DNA from: Algoriphagus antarcticus
GTDB lineage: Bacteria > Bacteroidota > Bacteroidia > Cytophagales > Cyclobacteriaceae
Assembly: GCF_002150685.1 (NCBI RefSeq)
Contig: NZ_MSSW01000002.1
Coordinates: 62,001-126,000, forward strand
Length of the DNA stretch: 64,000 bases
Reading direction: 5' to 3'
The translations under genes and the position numbers were made by a program. The notes under the pieces are model-generated. The model was given only the letters and a program-made list of their open reading frames with translations. It ran no database searches and was not told where the DNA came from. This document shows, piece by piece, positions 15,333 to 24,697 of this stretch. Within the stretch, counting starts at the first letter, position 1; each line of letters opens with the position of its first letter.

Positions 15333-16352
15333 TTACAACAAATCAAATCCTTTTCGCATCGCAAAGCTCTCTCTGATCCAGCCTGCAAGTCTTGCGCTTT
15401 GGGCAAAGTCAAGGGTTTGCTGTCCATCGGAGTAAGCTTTTTCAGGAACCTCATGAGATTCATAGATTATCCCGTCTGCTCCAGACATCACGCCAGCAAG
15501 TGCCATTTGCGGCACATAAGCACGTATCCCAATTCCATGCGAAGGATCCACGATCACAGGCAAGTGGGATTTTGCTTTCAAAATCGGAATTGCATTTAAG
15601 TCTAAGGTATTTCTAGAAGCTCGCTCATAGGTACGAATCCCTCTCTCGCAGAGAATCAGTTTCTCATTTCCTCCTGAGAATACATACTCAGCAGATTGCA
15701 AAAGCTCTTCGATCGTACCGGAAATACCCCGCTTAATCATCACCGCTTTATCTACTTTTCCCAATTCATCCAAGAGGTTGAAGTTTTGGGAATTTCTGGC
15801 TCCCACCTGATACACATCCACATAAGGATACATTTCTTCGATTTGGGAAGTTTGCATCACTTCTGTGACAATCTTGATCCCGGCTTCATGAGCGATCTCA
15901 TACCACAGCTTTAAGCCGTCTAAGCCCAAACCACGAAATGCATACGGGCTACTTCTAGGTTTAAATACTCCACCTCGCATCATCTTGATGTCATTCTCCA
16001 CACAATGGGCTACGACAGAGCGGATTTGTTCTTCAGATTCAATAGAGCATGGCCCGGTGATTACTGCCATTTCACCTTCTTTGATGAAAATATTATCGCC
16101 CAAATCAACGGAAGTAGGTTTCGCTTTCCACTTTTTAGACACCAATTTATATTCATCTGATACAATATGGATATCTATTATCCCATCCATCTGGCCTATT
16201 TGGCGGATATCGATTTCCTTTTTACCGATCCCGATCAGATAGTCTCCCAATTGGGTTTTTACTTCGGTAATTTTATACCCTATTCCATTGACTTTTTGGA
16301 TCAAATTCTCCTTTTGGCTATTGGAAATATCGGGTTGAAGCTGAATAATCAT
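15333..16352 (-). CDS. aroF: 3-deoxy-7-phosphoheptulonate (DAHP) synthase, AroA-beta type
   Basis: 339 aa. Catalyses the first shikimate step, condensing phosphoenolpyruvate and erythrose 4-phosphate. Residues 1-70 form a ferredoxin-like (FL) N-terminal domain that, in this Bacillus/Thermotoga-type class, serves allosteric control by aromatic amino acids. The barrel contains VITGPCSIES (about 93-102), KPRSSPYAFRG, the metal ligands in ILCERGIRTYE and the terminal VIVDPSHGIG. Last gene of the trp operon: three bases separate it from trpA, so it is presumably co-regulated with tryptophan synthesis. Confidence 0.94.
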   Translation of the reverse strand: MIIQLQPDISNSQKENLIQKVNGIGYKITEVKTQLGDYLIGIGKKEIDIRQIGQMDGIIDIHIVSDEYKLVSKKWKAKPTSVDLGDNIFIKEGEMAVITGPCSIESEEQIRSVVAHCVENDIKMMRGGVFKPRSSPYAFRGLGLDGLKLWYEIAHEAGIKIVTEVMQTSQIEEMYPYVDVYQVGARNSQNFNLLDELGKVDKAVMIKRGISGTIEELLQSAEYVFSGGNEKLILCERGIRTYERASRNTLDLNAIPILKAKSHLPVIVDPSHGIGIRAYVPQMALAGVMSGADGIIYESHEVPEKAYSDGQQTLDFAQSARLAGWIRESFAMRKGFDLL

Positions 16353-16355
16353 TGC

Positions 16356-17129
16356 TTACTTGATTACAGTTTGAATGTATGCCTGAATGTCTTCACTCAG
16401 GTTTTTAGAATTTTTTACGGTTTTGATGAAAGCTGAGCCAATGATCGCTCCATTGCTATATTCTGAGGCTTTGGAGAAAGTTTCGGAGTCAGAAATCCCA
16501 AAACCAATCAATCTCGAATTTTTCAATTTCATAGCCTGCACCCGCTTAAAATAAGTGATTTGCTCCTCAGTGATTCCGGTTTTCGCACCTGTGACACCAT
16601 GTGAGGAGACCATGTAGATAAATCCATTGGAGTGCTGGTCAATCTCCAAAATTCGTTTTTCTGAGGTCTGTGGGGAAATCAAAAAGGTATTGACCAAACC
16701 ATACTCCTCGAAAAGTAATTTGTAGTCATCCAAATATTGCTGCATGGGAAGATCTGGGAGAATCAACCCATCTACTCCTACTTCCTGACATTTCTTGCAA
16801 AAAGCCTCCATCCCATATTGCATGATTGGGTTCAAATAGCCCATCAATACTACAGGTAGAGTGATTTTCTCACGAAATCCAGCCAGTTGATTAAACAGTT
16901 TTTTCAAAGAAATACCATTCTCTAAAGCGATCATATTGCTATCCTGGATAGTTGGCCCATCAGCAATAGGGTCGGAATACGGAACTCCAATTTCTATGAT
17001 ATCAGCTCCGCCGGCCTGGATAGCTTCCATAATAGGAAGCGTATCCTCAAGTGCTGGAAAACCAGCTGTAAAGTAGATGGAGAGAACGCGGTTCTTTTTG
17101 GATTCAAACAGTTTATGTATTCGGTTCAT
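16356..17129 (-). CDS. trpA: tryptophan synthase alpha subunit
   Basis: 257 aa from the Met at 17129 (MNRIHKLFESKKNRVLSIYFTAGFP); a longer frame from 17189 only adds residues from a repeat region and is not believable. Cleaves indole-3-glycerol phosphate to indole, passed to TrpB. Family signatures: ADIIEIGVPYSDPIADGPTIQ with the catalytic Asp, a catalytic Glu in DIIEIG, and IGFGISDSETF/NGAIIGSAF at the phosphate site. Separated from trpB by 73 bases containing an inverted repeat. Confidence 0.95.
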   Translation of the reverse strand: MNRIHKLFESKKNRVLSIYFTAGFPALEDTLPIMEAIQAGGADIIEIGVPYSDPIADGPTIQDSNMIALENGISLKKLFNQLAGFREKITLPVVLMGYLNPIMQYGMEAFCKKCQEVGVDGLILPDLPMQQYLDDYKLLFEEYGLVNTFLISPQTSEKRILEIDQHSNGFIYMVSSHGVTGAKTGITEEQITYFKRVQAMKLKNSRLIGFGISDSETFSKASEYSNGAIIGSAFIKTVKNSKNLSEDIQAYIQTVIK

Positions 17130-17144
17130 ATAGATAGATGATGG

Positions 17145-17196
17145 ATGTCGGGTGTCCGATGACCGATGCAAACACCTTTCACCGGACATCCGACAT
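17145..17196. repeat. inverted repeat between trpB and trpA
   Basis: Arms 17145-17158 and 17183-17196 match in 13 of 14 positions (ATGTCGGGTGTCCG with CGGACATCCGACAT). The loop contains CCGATGACCGATG, related to the GACCGAAG repeats at 7391 and 53921; a CGGACATCTGACA relative lies near 54305. Confidence 0.65.
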
Positions 17197-17202
17197 TAAA
17201 CT

Positions 17203-18381
17203 TTAATAATTTCCCCATTTGATATAAGTGTCCAGATCCTTGTCTCCTCTTCCTGACAGGTTGATCACGATCACATCGTCTTTTGAATATTCGATCAAAT
17301 TGAGCGCGTAGATCGCATGTGCAGTCTCAATGGCAGGAATGATCCCTTCCAATCGACTCAATTCTATACCAGATTTCATCGCATCTTCATCTTCTACGGC
17401 TACGAATTCGCCTCTGCCGATATCAAATAAGTGCGCATGAACAGGTCCGATGCCAGGGTAATCCAAACCCGCTGAAATTGAATGTGGCTCTACCACCTGT
17501 CCATCTTCAGTTTGCATTAAAATCGTTTTCGATCCGTGTAAGACTCCTGGAGTTCCTAGCACCGTCGTAGCTGCAGATTTTCCAGAAGAAATCCCCAAAC
17601 CTGCAGCCTCAGCCGCTACCAATCTCACTTCCGGTGTATTATAATAATGGTAAAAAGCTCCAGCTGCATTGGATCCTCCACCCACACAGGCGATGACGAT
17701 ATCTGGATTTTCTCTTCCTTCCTTTTCCTTTAGCTGCCATTTCATTTCCTCGGAAATCACGGACTGAAACCTCGCCACCATCTCAGGATATGGATGCGGC
17801 CCCACCACCGAACCGATGATGTAATGTGTATCCACTGGATCATTGATCCATGCACGCATAGCTTCATTTGTGGCATCCTTTAAGGTTTTTGAACCTGAAG
17901 TCGCAGGAACAACTTTAGCTCCCAAGATCTTCATTCGCTCCACATTGGGATGCTGACGGGCTATATCTACCTCACCCATATACACGGTGCAGTCCATTCC
18001 CATCAAGGCACAAACTGTCGCTGTGGCAACTCCATGCTGACCGGCTCCGGTTTCTGCTATAATTCGCTTTTTGCCAAGCTTTTTCGCTAGGATGATCTGA
18101 CCAATGGTATTGTTCACCTTGTGAGCTCCGGTATGACATAGATCTTCCCGTTTCAAATAAATTTTAGCTCCGTATTTCTCAGAAAGTCTGGAAGCAAAAT
18201 ATAAGGGTGTTGGACGACCAACGTAGTCTTTCAGCAAGCCTCTGAATTCATCCTGAAATTCCTTCGACGCCATAATTGACTCGTAATTATCCTTCAGTTC
18301 TTCGATATTGGGATGCAGCATTTCGGGGATATATGCCCCTCCAAATTTGCCGTAAAAGCCCTTTTCATCTACTTTGATCAT
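17203..18381 (-). CDS. trpB: tryptophan synthase beta subunit
   Basis: 392 aa. PLP enzyme joining indole and serine. The PLP lysine lies in [15 protein letters not shown] (about residue 88), the phosphate-binding loop is GGGSNAAG, and [13 protein letters not shown] and the TrpB1 LSGRGDKD ending are present. Ten bases downstream of trpF, in the order trpF-trpB-trpA. Confidence 0.96.
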
Positions 18382-18390
18382 TTCATTTTG

Positions 18391-19044
18391 TTAGTTATTG
18401 GCCGTTGGTCTTTTGTCATTACCAAGTAATCTATTCTTAAAACTCTTCAGTTTTTCAATATTCTTTAATCCCGGAGCATCTTCAAACTTTGAGTTCAAAT
18501 CCACTCCCACAAATTGTGGCATTCGTTCAGCAAGGATTAAAACCTCCTTCACGCTTTCCTCGTCCAAACCTCCACTCAGCAGAAATCCCTTTTCAAAAGG
18601 ATAGGTTTCCAGCATATTCCAATTGAATTTCCTTCCCGAACCACCATGACCTGCAGTTGCCGTATCAAAGAGGAAGTATTCAACCAAACCCAGATAATCT
18701 CGCAATGTTTCCCAGTCTATACTTTCTCCTACTGAAATGACTTTCCAAACCTTTTTGTTCGTTTTCAATTTCAACTCCCGCACATATCCAGGACTTTCAT
18801 CGCCATGGAGTTGAATGGCTGAAAGTTTGAATTCATCGATTTTGGATAAAACAAACTCAATTTTTTCATTCACAAAAACTCCAACTTTTGGTACTTCTGT
18901 CAACTGAATTGACGCTGCAGAATCAGATGAAACGTATCTTGGTGATTTGGAATAGAAAATCAAACCCATCCAATCAGGTTTAACTCCCTGAATCAGGTTT
19001 TGGATATTTTCTGGATCCCGCATCCCACACACTTTGATTTTCAT
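18391..19044 (-). CDS. trpF: phosphoribosylanthranilate isomerase
   Basis: 217 aa barrel enzyme. The N-terminus MKIKVCGMRDPENIQ carries the catalytic Cys (residue 6), followed by DWMGLIFYSKSPRYV, QLHGDESPGYV and the phosphate site LLSGGLDEESV / FVGVDLNSKFEDAPGLK. Catalyses the Amadori rearrangement of phosphoribosylanthranilate. 115 non-coding bases separate it from trpC upstream, so the reading order is trpC, trpF, trpB. Confidence 0.95.
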   Translation of the reverse strand: MKIKVCGMRDPENIQNLIQGVKPDWMGLIFYSKSPRYVSSDSAASIQLTEVPKVGVFVNEKIEFVLSKIDEFKLSAIQLHGDESPGYVRELKLKTNKKVWKVISVGESIDWETLRDYLGLVEYFLFDTATAGHGGSGRKFNWNMLETYPFEKGFLLSGGLDEESVKEVLILAERMPQFVGVDLNSKFEDAPGLKNIEKLKSFKNRLLGNDKRPTANN

Positions 19045-19159
19045 GTGTTTATAATTTGATTCTCATAGGGCACATAGCCTGTCCGGTACTCTTTTCGGGA
19101 GAATCTCGTATGGTAAATAATCATCTCTCCGTGTGACTTGTGAGTCATGCTCGATTTCA

Positions 19160-19978
19160 TCAGGCGTTTACTTCGTTCTCTTTTTTCAAAAGCTTCTTAT
19201 ACTCTTTGATGAAATTGTAGGCTGCTTGTTCCGGACGACTGGATTTCATGAAATTCTCTCCTATCAAGAACCCGTCGAATCCTGCTCTTTTCAAGGTGAT
19301 TAAAGTAGAAGGATCAGAAATTCCACTTTCAGAAATCTTCACAAAACCAGATGGGATTTTATCCACCAAGTCCATTGAAGTTTGCAAAGACACATCAAAA
19401 GTCTTCAAATTTCTATTGTTCACTCCTACCAAATCCAAGTCGTCACACAGGCTTCTTTCCAACTCTTCGCTATCGTGTACTTCCATTAACACTTCCAGTC
19501 CAAGGCTTTTTGAGAAAGCAGCCAACTCCATTAACCTCGTTGGCTCTAAAGTCGCTGCAATCAGCAGTATGCAATCAGCGCCGATAGATTTTGCTTCCAA
19601 TATCTGATATTCATCCACTATGAAATCCTTGCGAAGGATAGGACAAAAGTTAAACTTTCGGGCGTCCTTAAGATCAGCATTGCTTCCTCCAAAGAAATCC
19701 GTATCCGTCAAAATCGACAATGCTGATGCGCCAGCTTGCATGTATCCGATACTCACAGCTTCCACCGAAGCAACGCCTTTGATCAAACCTTTGGAAGGCG
19801 ACTTTCTCTTGAATTCAGAGATGATTCCGGATTTCTCAGGATCACACACGTACTTTTTCATGGAGACCACTGTTCCTTCGAAAAAGACACTTTTTTCCAA
19901 AAGTTTCACTGGCACCAAGCTGCTCCTTTCGGCTACCTCGAGGTGTTTATGAGCAATGATTTTATCTAAAATATTCAT
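19160..19978 (-). CDS. trpC: indole-3-glycerol-phosphate synthase
   Basis: 272 aa, monofunctional. Family signatures: IISEFKRKSPSKG (catalytic Lys), SILTDTDFFGGS, FCPILRKDFIVDEYQI (catalytic Lys), LMEVHDSEEL, VGVNNRNLKTF and VKISESGIS. Closes the indole ring from CdRP. Six bases after trpD. Confidence 0.96.
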   Translation of the reverse strand: MNILDKIIAHKHLEVAERSSLVPVKLLEKSVFFEGTVVSMKKYVCDPEKSGIISEFKRKSPSKGLIKGVASVEAVSIGYMQAGASALSILTDTDFFGGSNADLKDARKFNFCPILRKDFIVDEYQILEAKSIGADCILLIAATLEPTRLMELAAFSKSLGLEVLMEVHDSEELERSLCDDLDLVGVNNRNLKTFDVSLQTSMDLVDKIPSGFVKISESGISDPSTLITLKRAGFDGFLIGENFMKSSRPEQAAYNFIKEYKKLLKKENEVNA

Positions 19979-19984
19979 AAGATT

Positions 19985-20995
19985 TTATGCTAAAGAAACT
20001 GTTGTTTTTGGATTGACCAGTCCGTTAAAGACATGAAGCGCTTTTTGGCTCAATAATGCTTCTTCTGCTACGCTTACCGCCTCCACAAAAGATAGTCCTT
20101 CACGGGCGGTGACCAGTGCGGCCGCTGAATTGGCAATTACTACCGCATTTTGACTTTTGGTGCCCTTGCCCTTCAGGATATTTTCAAATATTCTGGCAGA
20201 TTCTTGGATGGACTCACCACCCTTAATAGAGGATGCAGTTAGTTTTGGCAAGCCAATATTTTCTGGGCTATAGACTTTTTCCCCATTATTTGAAATCATC
20301 TTAAAATCACCCGTAAGCGAAATCTCATCATAGCCATCCAAGGCGTGAAGAATAGAGAATCTTCCTTCCATATCCTGATAGAGATAGCCGTATAATCGTG
20401 CTAACTCTAGACTAAATACGCCTACCAATTGTTTTGTCGGAAAACTTGGATTCACCATTGGGCCAAGCATGTTGAAGAAGGTTTTTACCCCTAGGTCTTT
20501 TCTGATCGGACCGACATGCTTCATTGCTGGGTGAAAAAGTGGGGCATGCAAGAAGCAAATCCCAACTTCATCTAAGCTCCGACGGATTCTATCCAGATTA
20601 CTTGTAAATGCATAACCAAAGTATGCAAGCAGATTAGACGAACCACAGATGGAAGAAACACCGTTATTTCCATGTTTTGCCACATTTTGTCCAGCAGCTG
20701 CAACCACAAAGGAAGATAGGGTGGAAATATTAAAGGTGTCTTTGCCGTCTCCCCCAGTTCCGCAAAGATCCATCGCATCGTATTCGGAGATTTCCACCGG
20801 AATGCATCGCTCAAGCATGGCTTCACGGAATCCCGAAAGTTCCTCCACAGTGATACTCCGCATCATATACACCGTCATAAATGCGGCGATCTGGCTTGTA
20901 TTGTAATTTCCGGCTGTAATGTCTTTCAAAACCTCTTTCGCATCGGCTCGGGTAAGCGTCCGGTGCTCGATGAGATGATTCAAAATATCTTTCAT
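19985..20995 (-). CDS. trpD: anthranilate phosphoribosyltransferase
   Basis: 336 aa. Transfers phosphoribose from PRPP to anthranilate. The PRPP-binding motif is DLCGTGGDGKDTFNIST (about 79-95), followed by KHGNNGVSS and RKDLGVKTFFNMLGPMVNP. Separate from trpG, unlike the enterobacterial fusion; 30 bases lie between the two genes. Confidence 0.96.
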   Translation of the reverse strand: MKDILNHLIEHRTLTRADAKEVLKDITAGNYNTSQIAAFMTVYMMRSITVEELSGFREAMLERCIPVEISEYDAMDLCGTGGDGKDTFNISTLSSFVVAAAGQNVAKHGNNGVSSICGSSNLLAYFGYAFTSNLDRIRRSLDEVGICFLHAPLFHPAMKHVGPIRKDLGVKTFFNMLGPMVNPSFPTKQLVGVFSLELARLYGYLYQDMEGRFSILHALDGYDEISLTGDFKMISNNGEKVYSPENIGLPKLTASSIKGGESIQESARIFENILKGKGTKSQNAVVIANSAAALVTAREGLSFVEAVSVAEEALLSQKALHVFNGLVNPKTTVSLA

Positions 20996-21025
20996 AATTG
21001 GGGGTATTATTTGGTGGTTCTGTTC

Positions 21026-21592
21026 TTAATTCTCCATCCAGTTTTTGATTATTTGCACTCCGTTTTCGGTAAGAATGCTTTCGGGATGAAACTGTAAACC
21101 CCTGACATCAAACTTCTTATGTCTTACTGCCATAATTTGGTTGTCAGGCGTACGAGCGATCACTTCCAAGTCTGGTGAAAGGGTGTTTTCATCAACAACC
21201 CAAGAGTGATATCTACCAATACTAAAAGTATCGGGAACGTCCTTGAAAAGCAAGTCATCTTCCACTTTTACTGTAGAAGCCACGCCATGAAGAACCTCAG
21301 ACAAATTTATAAGTTCACCACCGAATGCTTCACCGATTGCCTGATGCCCTAAACACACGCCCAAAATTGATTTGGTCGCAGCGTACTTTGTCAAAAGCTC
21401 AGGCATAATTCCCGCATCTTCCGGAACTCCAGGCCCCGGCGATAGAATTATTTTATCGTATTGAGCTACGTCTTCCAAACTGATTTTGTCATTTCTAAAG
21501 ACTTCAAGCTGTCCTCCATAGCCCAACTGTCTGACAATATAGACCAGGTTGTAGGTGAAGGAATCGTAATTATCCAAGACGAGTATTTTCAT
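21026..21592 (-). CDS. trpG: anthranilate synthase component II (glutamine amidotransferase)
   Basis: 188 aa from MKILVLDNYDSFTYN at 21592; the frame is open to 21751, but the extra 53 codons come from the AT-rich repeat region and lack family character. Class I glutaminase: nucleophile in LGVCLGHQAIGEAFGG and the His/Glu pair in LQFHPESIL. Supplies ammonia to TrpE. Confidence 0.95.
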   Translation of the reverse strand: MKILVLDNYDSFTYNLVYIVRQLGYGGQLEVFRNDKISLEDVAQYDKIILSPGPGVPEDAGIMPELLTKYAATKSILGVCLGHQAIGEAFGGELINLSEVLHGVASTVKVEDDLLFKDVPDTFSIGRYHSWVVDENTLSPDLEVIARTPDNQIMAVRHKKFDVRGLQFHPESILTENGVQIIKNWMEN

Positions 21593-21934
21593 TTTTGTGA
21601 TCAATTGTAAAATTGAAAAATTAGAAGATTGGAAGATTCTGTAGAATTGAGCGCCTTCCTTTTTCTTGTTTTCAAATTCATTTAGGTATTTGATTAAGCC
21701 TTTTAATTCACTTAATATGTTTGCTCTTATATTTTTATAGCATGTTACCAAACTGGCAAATCTTCAAATCGCTCATATTTTGCCATAGTTTTTCATTTTA
21801 AAAATCTTGCAATTCTCCAATTATCCAGCTAAATATTCAAGTTGAATCGATGGATTTTTGCCAAACTTTCACATTTATAGATCGTTCTACTTTTGCCACA
21901 ATCTTCCAATTTTTCAATCCTAAAATCTTCCAAT
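21593..21934. repeat. AT-rich repeat region between trpE and trpG
   Basis: 342 bases within the operon, with several imperfect direct copies of AATCTTCCAATTT (near 21900-21937 in two adjacent copies) and inverted relatives (GAAGATTGGAAGATT near 21624). No protein-like frame apart from the unlikely N-terminal extension of trpG. No terminator-like hairpin with a T run is obvious, so read-through of the operon is possible. Confidence 0.5.
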
Positions 21935-23347
21935 TTAGATCTTCTCTGCCGCCCTCAACGCCACTCTGAGCGCCTCCAACTTATTAGCTACTTCTTGCAA
22001 TTCGGAAGGTATGGTTGATTTGGCAACCACACCAGCTCCTGCCTGGAATCGAAGTTGGTTGTTTTCGGAGACAAAAGACCTGATCAAAATCGCATGGTTG
22101 AAGTCTCCATTGAATCCCAAATAACCGATTGCTCCACCATAAAATGTTCTTGAAATATTCTCCAGCTCATCGATCAATTCCATCGCTCTATATTTTGGAG
22201 CCCCCGAAAGTGTTCCCGCAGGAAATGTGTCTGCTACAAGCTGAAGTGGATTGGTGTTTTCCGGTAATTCACCAGTCACTTTGGAAACCAAATGGATAAC
22301 ATGTGAATAATATTGAATCTCTTTGAACACTTCCACGGTAACCTTTTCGGAAGATCTACTCAAATCATTTCTAGCCAAATCTACCAGCATCACATGCTCT
22401 GAATTTTCTTTCGGATCATTATAAAGCTGGCGAGCCAGAACTGCATCCTCCTGATCGTTTCCAGTTCTTCGAAATGTCCCCGCTATCGGATAAATAGTGG
22501 CTTTTTTGTCTTTCACTACGATCTGAGCCTCTGGCGAGCTACCAAAAACCTTAAAGGAGCCATAATCGAAATAGAACAAATAAGGAGAAGGATTCACTGA
22601 ACGAAGCGCTCGATAAACGTTGAATTCATCTCCCTTGAAAGCCGTACTGAATCGGCGGGAAAGTACAATCTGGAACACATCACCTTTATAGCAATGCTCA
22701 CGGCCCTGATTCAAAATCTTTAAAAATTCCTCATCTGTGTAGTTTGATTCTTCTTCACCTATCCGCTGAAAGGAGTAGCTCGGAATATTCTTGTTATTAA
22801 GGATACGCTCGATCTCCTCCATCATTTCAGCATTTTCAGATCCGGCTACCCTATGCTCAAGCAGATGCAATTCATTCTTGTAGTGATCCACCACGATTAC
22901 ATTCTGATAGACCGAATACTGCATCATCGGCACCTCCGATGGCTGTGTGTTTTGAAGTTTGATGTCCTCAAAATAAGCGACAGTATCGTATTGAATATAT
23001 CCAAAAAGCCCATTGGAGCTGAATTTGAAATTATCCGGCGCTACATCAAACTTATTTCCAAATGCACGAAGACATTGCATCAGATTCTGGTCAGAACTCA
23101 CTTCATAGCTTTCCTTTTTTCCTGAAGGTAGCTTCTCTGTCACCTTACCCGCATTAAAGGAGAAAGTAGCCAAAGGATTAAAACAGATATACGAATAGCT
23201 GTTTTCATGCCCATGATAATCGGAACTCTCCAGTAGGATAGGATTTGCAAAACGATCCCTGATTTGTAAATAAATACTTACCGGCGTGATCGTATCTGCC
23301 AGTCGTTTTTGGTAAGTAGTCAGTATTGAAAATTTTACTTGAGTCAT
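21935..23347 (-). CDS. trpE: anthranilate synthase component I
   Basis: 470 aa. Makes anthranilate from chorismate and ammonia. The tryptophan feedback pocket motif LLES is present near residue 38 (PILLESSDYHGHE), suggesting the enzyme is also feedback-inhibited. The catalytic core includes VFQIVLSRRF, YLFYFDYGSFKVFGSSPE, PIAGTFRRT, DLARNDLSR, FPAGTLSGAPK and the C-terminal FQAGAGVVAKS. First structural gene of the operon; its start lies 19 bases after the attenuator-like hairpin. Confidence 0.96.
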   Translation of the reverse strand: MTQVKFSILTTYQKRLADTITPVSIYLQIRDRFANPILLESSDYHGHENSYSYICFNPLATFSFNAGKVTEKLPSGKKESYEVSSDQNLMQCLRAFGNKFDVAPDNFKFSSNGLFGYIQYDTVAYFEDIKLQNTQPSEVPMMQYSVYQNVIVVDHYKNELHLLEHRVAGSENAEMMEEIERILNNKNIPSYSFQRIGEEESNYTDEEFLKILNQGREHCYKGDVFQIVLSRRFSTAFKGDEFNVYRALRSVNPSPYLFYFDYGSFKVFGSSPEAQIVVKDKKATIYPIAGTFRRTGNDQEDAVLARQLYNDPKENSEHVMLVDLARNDLSRSSEKVTVEVFKEIQYYSHVIHLVSKVTGELPENTNPLQLVADTFPAGTLSGAPKYRAMELIDELENISRTFYGGAIGYLGFNGDFNHAILIRSFVSENNQLRFQAGAGVVAKSTIPSELQEVANKLEALRVALRAAEKI

Positions 23348-23366: not shown

Positions 23367-23402
23367 AAAAAAGGCTTACTGGAAATCCAGTAAGCCTTTT
23401 TT
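23367..23402 (-). terminator. attenuator terminator before trpE
   Basis: Perfect 16-bp stem, including the flanking A/T pairs: arms 23367-23382 and 23387-23402, a four-base loop, and a T run on the minus strand (plus A run 23367-23372). It lies 36 bases past the trp leader-peptide stop and ends 19 bases before the trpE ATG, where it can only prevent operon transcription. Symmetric T/A runs make it potentially bidirectional, but no plus-strand gene ends here. Confidence 0.85.
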
Positions 23403-23438
23403 ACTATGTAGTAGCGCAAAATTAAATGCAGGGGCTTT

Positions 23439-23501
23439 CTAAACTTCCTTTTGGAAAGAGTAAGAATGCCACCACCAGTTTTTGTTTGCGATTGTTTTCA
23501 T
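23439..23501 (-). CDS. trpL: trp operon leader peptide
   Basis: A 20-codon open frame with three consecutive Trp codons at positions 9-11 (NWWWH) between ATG at 23501 and TAG at 23439-23441. Trp is a rare amino acid, so three adjacent codons in a tiny frame just before an intrinsic terminator and trpE are the hallmark of ribosome-mediated attenuation: low Trp-tRNA stalls the ribosome and should favour read-through. After the stop, AAAGCCCC (minus strand, 23438-23431) could pair five bases with GGCTT of the terminator; a stronger antiterminator is not evident. The predicted transcript start is only about 9 bases before the ATG. Confidence 0.85.
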   Translation of the reverse strand: MKTIANKNWWWHSYSFQKEV

Positions 23502-23512
23502 TAGATTGAGAG

Positions 23513-23542
23513 CAAATTTAGAAAGGGATTGCTAAGGACAAA
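23513..23542 (-). promoter_or_regulatory. trp operon promoter
   Basis: Bacteroidota-type boxes on the minus strand: -33 TTTG (plus CAAA, 23539-23542), 18-base spacer, -7 TAAATTTG (plus 23513-23520). Start expected near 23510, immediately upstream of trpL. Confidence 0.7.
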
Positions 23543-24576: not shown

Positions 24577-24606
24577 TTGTAAGGGAATATTTTCTCCTTA
24601 CTTTTG
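24577..24606 (+). promoter_or_regulatory. SRP RNA promoter
   Basis: -33 TTG at 24577-24579, a 19-base spacer and -7 TACTTTTG at 24599-24606 fit the Bacteroidota sigma-A consensus and place the RNA start at about 24609. Confidence 0.75.
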
Positions 24607-24608
24607 TC

Positions 24609-24697
24609 CCGGCGGCACGACCAGCTCCTGCTGAATCCCCCAGGTCCGGAAGGAAGCAAGGGTAGGTGGTTGAGCGGTGCGATGCCGCTTCTTTTTT
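24609..24697 (+). ncRNA. ffs: signal recognition particle RNA (4.5S, small bacterial type)
   Basis: The diagnostic apical loop CAGGTCCGGAAGGAAGCA lies at 24641-24658. Outer strands GCGGCA (24612-24617) and TGCCGC (24683-24688) close the hairpin, and the T run at 24691-24697 terminates it. The product binds Ffh and directs membrane proteins to the translocon. Confidence 0.92.

Follow-up and report, generated by a model that had tools for sequence, protein, structure and literature searches.

The analyzed window, a stretch of 64,000 nucleotides from the Algoriphagus antarcticus genome (5.9 Mb in 134 contigs), carries on its minus strand a trpEGDCFBA operon. Judged by TrpE, the nearest named relatives are Algoriphagus species (94% identity). 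The first structural gene, trpE (21935..23347, ATG at 23347), was best matched by model TIGR00564 with 428.5 bits, under the curated cut-off of 517.7. The remaining operon genes, trpG, trpD, trpC, trpF, trpB, trpA and a DAHP synthase gene (15333..21595, minus strand), were assigned with profile models; the best model for trpF also scored under its curated cut-off, and each of the other six had a model above it. No match to the Trp repressor TrpR was found in this genome, which speaks for attenuation; of 14 control genomes, the same search was positive in two, those of E. coli and B. subtilis. The window also encodes a small SRP RNA on the plus strand at 24604-24696 (RF04183 Bacteroidales_small_SRP, 69.6 bits).

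Upstream of trpE and on the same strand, a putative promoter is followed by a short ORF and an intrinsic terminator. The promoter consists of a -33 element TTTG (23539..23542) and, after an 18-base spacer, a -7 element TAAATTTG (23513..23520); by eye, TTTG or TTG is seen at the same place in close relatives. The leader peptide ORF MKTIANKNWWWHSYSFQKEV (23439..23501) starts with the ATG at 23501 and has 20 codons plus the stop codon TAG (23441-23439). Its codons 9-11 (23469..23477), the proposed stalling site, are Trp codons, and it is the sole ATG-started ORF of 8-45 codons containing WWW on either strand of the window. The terminator (23367..23402) has a perfect 16-bp stem, a 4-base AUUU loop and a final U6, and its end is separated from trpE by 19 bases. 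The promoter, the frame with its Trp codons, the terminator and the gap had all been reported in an earlier note, and we found each of them where it had been placed. A sigma-70 promoter scan gave chance-level results and was discarded, its consensus being wrong for Bacteroidota-type promoters. The terminator scan run alongside did not list the terminator at 23402-23367, probably because its tail window begins past the paired T-run.

Folding of the 147-nt leader RNA, which the earlier note had recommended, gave a better result than 200 of 200 shuffles (z -4.7). The predicted structures involve three alternative pairings. In the 1:2 hairpin (23431..23473), the Trp codons and the sequence following them pair with region 2, GGAAGUUUAGAAAGCC (23448-23433), which overlaps the leader end and the stop codon. 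Region 2 would also serve as the 5' arm of an antiterminator, with region 3, GGCUUACUGGAUUUCC (23396-23381), as its 3' arm; region 3 is at the same time the 5' arm of the terminator (3:4). Regions 2 and 3 pair at 15 of 16 positions, three of them G-U. An antiterminator of 5 bp between AAAGCC and GGCTT had been suggested before; this stretch is one end of the predicted 16-nt pairing with its 15 pairs. The predicted antiterminator, called unclear in the earlier note, is extensive, and it is in the classical place.

For comparison, 130 sequences were screened, of which 114 yielded a total of 117 leader-terminator sets. Thinning to a likeness of no more than 70% over the compared stretch left 66 representatives. 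The 1:2 hairpin of the window, with the Trp codons at its base, reached -13.8 kcal/mol versus -10.1 for shuffles. Over the 66 representatives the means were -11.8 and -8.3, with z below -1 in 47. A two-state model omitting 1:2 was dropped once this hairpin had beaten the shuffles both in the window and in the representatives.

How a ribosome would act on these pairings was modeled by counting RNA as free from 14 nt past the first base of the A-site. With the A-site at codons 6-14, about 15 positions of region 2 stay paired with region 3 in the model; the pairing declines from codon 15 and is nil with the A-site at codons 19-21. The earlier proposal that the antiterminator arm is free during a stall at the Trp codons and masked by a ribosome at the stop codon fits this modeled behavior. 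In the full-length RNA, 1:2 together with 3:4 (-43.2 kcal/mol) is favored over forced 2:3 (-27.0), and for antitermination to prevail, 2:3 must therefore form ahead of the synthesis of region 4. This order of events is that of the classical attenuation model, in which the antiterminator forms before region 4 is transcribed. Folding of an RNA that ends at region 3, free of any ribosome, favored 2:3 over 1:2, so that the untranslated state is uncertain.

Conservation of the arrangement was examined in 80 related trpE loci plus the window; L057 and L063 had less than the required 400 nt upstream, which left 79 sequences. A leader with a Trp run (WW or W.W) was found in all 79 usable upstream regions, window included, and a WWW run in 68. 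The corresponding rates in these regions were 4.8% and 0% for dinucleotide shuffles, and 1.3% and 0% for the reverse strand. A hairpin with a T-run before trpE was also found in each of the 79 regions, two cases being unconvincing (L053 and L071). Comparison of relatives had been proposed as a check that would count against attenuation if the hairpin was kept and the Trp codons were not; in fact, both are retained together. In an alignment of 37 of the 39 rows of the window's family, leader codons 2-12 varied more at third positions (0.19) than at first and second positions (0.10 and 0.12). The linker past region 2 varied at 0.28-0.33, with no such codon-position pattern.

Some loci contain more than one leader. 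Tandem Trp leaders, each with its own terminator, were seen in Fulvivirga marina (L044), Flammeovirgaceae UBA1842 (L049) and Rufibacter immobilis (L075), and R. latericius (L056) likewise has two Trp leaders. In none of the four does TAnnTTTG occur in the 58 nt preceding the second leader, and both leaders would therefore share one transcript.

A sample across the class comprised 159 genomes, 50 of them with trpE at E <= 1e-90. We read the 49 matches outside the own genome, 46 of which had enough upstream sequence. A WW or W.W leader was present in 37 of the 46 and a WWW leader in 22, versus 5.2% and 0% in shuffles. Nine of the 46 regions had no WW or W.W leader immediately before trpE. In three of these nine (L118, L126, L127), trpB lies just before trpE, as judged by eye, and the leader is present before trpB. 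In a family of three loci (L094, L095, L132), the short ORF between a promoter box and a terminator-like hairpin contains just one or two Trp codons, which may represent a different design. Leaders of this family read MKLWQTYY... and MNTWPSYRSWFPSTKG, and share a ATGGGGTA stretch at or just past the ORF end. Also in the class sample, L125 has a single Trp codon and a terminator, and no leader candidate was found before trpE in L097 and L108.

Comparative data also bear on the 2:3 pairing. Over the 66 representatives, the own 2:3 duplex had a mean of -12.4 kcal/mol versus -9.25 +/- 0.30 with swapped partners, with 0 of 5000 permutations as good; the representatives are mutually related, and the pairings are therefore not independent events. 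The mean was -8.5 with shuffled region 2, and again -8.5 with an upstream segment in the place of region 2 (65 sets). Single loci were less telling: the duplex of the window alone was equalled by 13% of shuffles, and a single-locus shuffle test reached the 5% level in only 26 of 76 loci, or in 31 of the 66 representatives in a second test. At a rigid register, natural combinations in the window's family formed 12.17 of 16 pairs versus 11.94 for swapped ones (226 of 5000 permutations as good, 24 distinct combinations), a weak excess. Two-sided changes were noticed by eye for position 6 of region 2 with position 11 of region 3 (U-A and A-U) and for position 3 of region 2 with position 14 of region 3 (A-U and G-C). 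Column-rigid covariation gave little in this family; bulges shift the register, and most of the region is conserved.

The position of region 2 relative to the Trp codons is restricted. Its start lies 12-24 nt past the last Trp codon in 57 of the 66 representatives, versus about 26% in shuffles. Region 2 is typically found about 19 nt beyond the last Trp codon, whatever the position of the stop codon, the end of which ranges from 15 to 42 nt past the last Trp codon (10th to 90th percentile of the representatives). A constant distance from Trp codons to region 2 is what the leading edge of a stalled ribosome would require. The same constancy argues against an incidental ORF next to a hairpin that is either a plain terminator or under the control of an RNA-binding protein or a T-box. 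Other modes of attenuation are known for trp operons, which speaks for such an arrangement; the rate of WWW ORFs in shuffled upstream regions was 0.000, no T-box was among the 41 permissive Rfam matches of the region, and we regard this explanation as extremely improbable.

Together, the leader, terminator and antiterminator and their counterparts in relatives support the attenuation reading of the earlier note, and we identify the element with high confidence as a ribosome-mediated attenuator of trp operon transcription. The leader ORF, its Trp codons, the three predicted alternative pairings, their spacing and their conservation are all read from the sequence and from its comparison with relatives. 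From these we infer translation of the leader, stalling, a response to Trp and premature termination, as follows. Transcription would start about 7 nt upstream of the leader AUG, and translation would initiate at this AUG. When charged tRNA-Trp is scarce, the ribosome would stall at codons 9-11, opening the 1:2 hairpin and leaving region 2 free. Free region 2 would pair with region 3 while region 4 is still untranscribed, so that no terminator forms and trpE is transcribed. When Trp is plentiful, the ribosome would reach the stop codon and cover region 2, 3:4 would form, and transcription would end.

A translated leader could also work by arrest of the nascent peptide in response to free tryptophan, as in TnaC, rather than by sensing uncharged tRNA. 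A Trp-containing leader is common to both designs. Across the class, however, what leaders share is a Trp-codon run (WWW, WW or W.W) and its spacing to region 2, and the flanking residues vary. Moreover, high Trp would then stall the ribosome instead of releasing it, presumably the opposite of what a biosynthetic operon with such a geometry needs, and we consider TnaC-like arrest very unlikely.

It is also improbable, if somewhat less so, that the leader RNA, once released, or the peptide has a role in trans on other targets in addition to attenuation. The trp leader of Sinorhizobium meliloti (peTrpL), for which such action is reported, provides a precedent (PMC7298713), and close relatives of the window differ little in the N-terminal part of the peptide. 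The C-terminal part differs, however: the leaders of the window and of five relatives end with ...FQKEV, most other Algoriphagus-type leaders with ...QKAVA or similar, and the variable C-terminal stretch is already explained by region 2.

The start of the leader transcript deserves separate attention. In Flavobacterium the -7 box is described as occupying positions -12 to -5 (PMC6847099, PMC9723704), and the length of the 5' UTR therefore equals the distance from box to ATG minus 4. For the window leader this predicts an RNA start at 23508 and a 5' UTR of 7 nt, which replaces the previous estimate of about 9 bases. When the ATG closest to the Trp codons was taken as the start, 65 representatives had 45 nt of sequence ahead of it; TAnnTTTG was found in this stretch in 47, versus 5.2% in shuffles. 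It lay at most 13 nt from the ATG, corresponding to a predicted UTR of at most 9 nt, in 37 of the 65, versus 2.3% in shuffles. In a control of 49 long ORFs of the window, a small set that includes intra-operon genes, the box was present within 120 nt in 8 and within 13 nt in none. The three leaders before trpB have longer predicted UTRs; by eye, two of them measure about 18-19 nt and the third exceeds this.

Published values for other members of the phylum allow a comparison: in F. johnsoniae, 87% of transcripts with a probable promoter have leaders of over 10 nt (PMC6847099), in B. thetaiotaomicron about 3.7% of 5' UTRs are under 10 nt, and in F. psychrophilum 5.5% of mRNAs are leaderless. 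We tentatively suggest, with confidence a little short of even, that in much of Bacteroidia, except in the three sampled trpB-first genomes, the trp leader may be near-leaderless (predicted UTR 0-9 nt), which would make attenuation depend on initiation at the 5' end. If so, initiation of this type would supply the ribosome that acts as the sensor right at the emergence of the transcript. Bacteria of this phylum do not use Shine-Dalgarno pairing and rarely have leaderless mRNAs, and the predicted start poses the question of how, without Shine-Dalgarno initiation, a ribosome could get onto the leader early enough to sense Trp supply. A description of near-leaderless trp leaders was not found in searches of an open-access library, and near-leaderless initiation, with its predicted transcript starts, appears to be the least described trait of the element.

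Other candidate leaders were sought in the own genome. The Trp-leader pattern had 9 matches, of which 8 were read in frame; in two of these, WWW belongs to a short frame that opens with an ATG. These two are the window leader and L147 (C104:25203-25234, plus strand), where the frame, MGQPWWWIYQSRK, has 13 codons, three of them for Trp. L147 has no -7 box at that place, and the frame is perhaps due to chance. By simple criteria based on residue runs, no convincing attenuator was found before the homoserine dehydrogenase and prephenate dehydratase genes.

Upstream of hisG (L136) there is a short ORF, MENSNRNIDFLATAHQGNLMHHFHHSS, with its ATG 9 nt past a TATCTTTG box; this is likely a His leader, again near-leaderless by prediction, and no clear terminator was seen before hisG. 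Upstream of ilvD (L137), a short ORF ending in ...VVILLSGIILIGF is followed, by eye, by a terminator-like hairpin, and GUGAGGCACU directly past the stop codon could pair with the 5' arm of this hairpin. The latter element is likely an Ile/Leu/Val attenuator.

Attenuators in this group have precedents. The abstract of Vitreschak et al. 2004 reportedly names attenuators of Bacteroidetes/Chlorobi. At gathering score, Rfam gave no match at the element, and a permissive scan aligned RF01692 Bacteroid-trp at full length to 23389-23521 with 39.6 bits, under the family's gathering score of 49. Several pairs of the family hairpin are non-standard in the window, where folding predicts a hairpin of the same kind. 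Among the 159 sampled genomes, RF01692 exceeded the cut-off in 6, the own genome not being among them (stricter filters); of its 7 places, three coincide with the leaders before trpB and four lie just upstream of trpE. RF01692 is listed as Bacteroidete tryptophan peptide leader RNA in a table of Weinberg et al. 2010 (PMC2864571). Like RF01692, the window element stands before trp genes of Bacteroidota and has a leader with a Trp run. Because of its score we do not count it formally among the members of RF01692; it is related, divergently, to an element already described, and its mechanism is clearly a known one. A transcriptome report on Flavobacterium psychrophilum, which belongs to this phylum too, mentions 'strong clues' that operons for amino-acid biosynthesis are preceded by leader-peptide attenuation, and in its accessible text names neither the trp operon nor the pairings (PMC9723704). 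The doubt in the earlier note as to whether such attenuation had been described in this group is settled by RF01692 and by this report.

The element shares with E. coli trpL of Proteobacteria a leader with Trp codons, the 1:2, 2:3 and 3:4 alternatives and a terminator before trpE. It differs in its predicted 7-nt 5' UTR, in its three consecutive Trp codons and in its TTTG/TAnnTTTG promoter, and a Shine-Dalgarno sequence is, from what sources on the window's phylum say, not expected there. A study on mycobacteria is said to describe leaderless cysteine attenuators. As in these short-ORF attenuators, the sensing ORF lies at or near the RNA 5' end; the mycobacterial cases belong to another phylum and concern another amino acid, and here the short 5' UTR is a prediction. 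A near-leaderless start, if true, would make the element a distinct variant of ribosome-mediated attenuation. RF01692 passes in just 6 of the 159 genomes, yet the class sample indicates that the device is widespread before the trp operons of the class, and for a group in which the Rfam model does not reach its cut-off, the window offers a trp attenuator whose anatomy is complete and open to testing.
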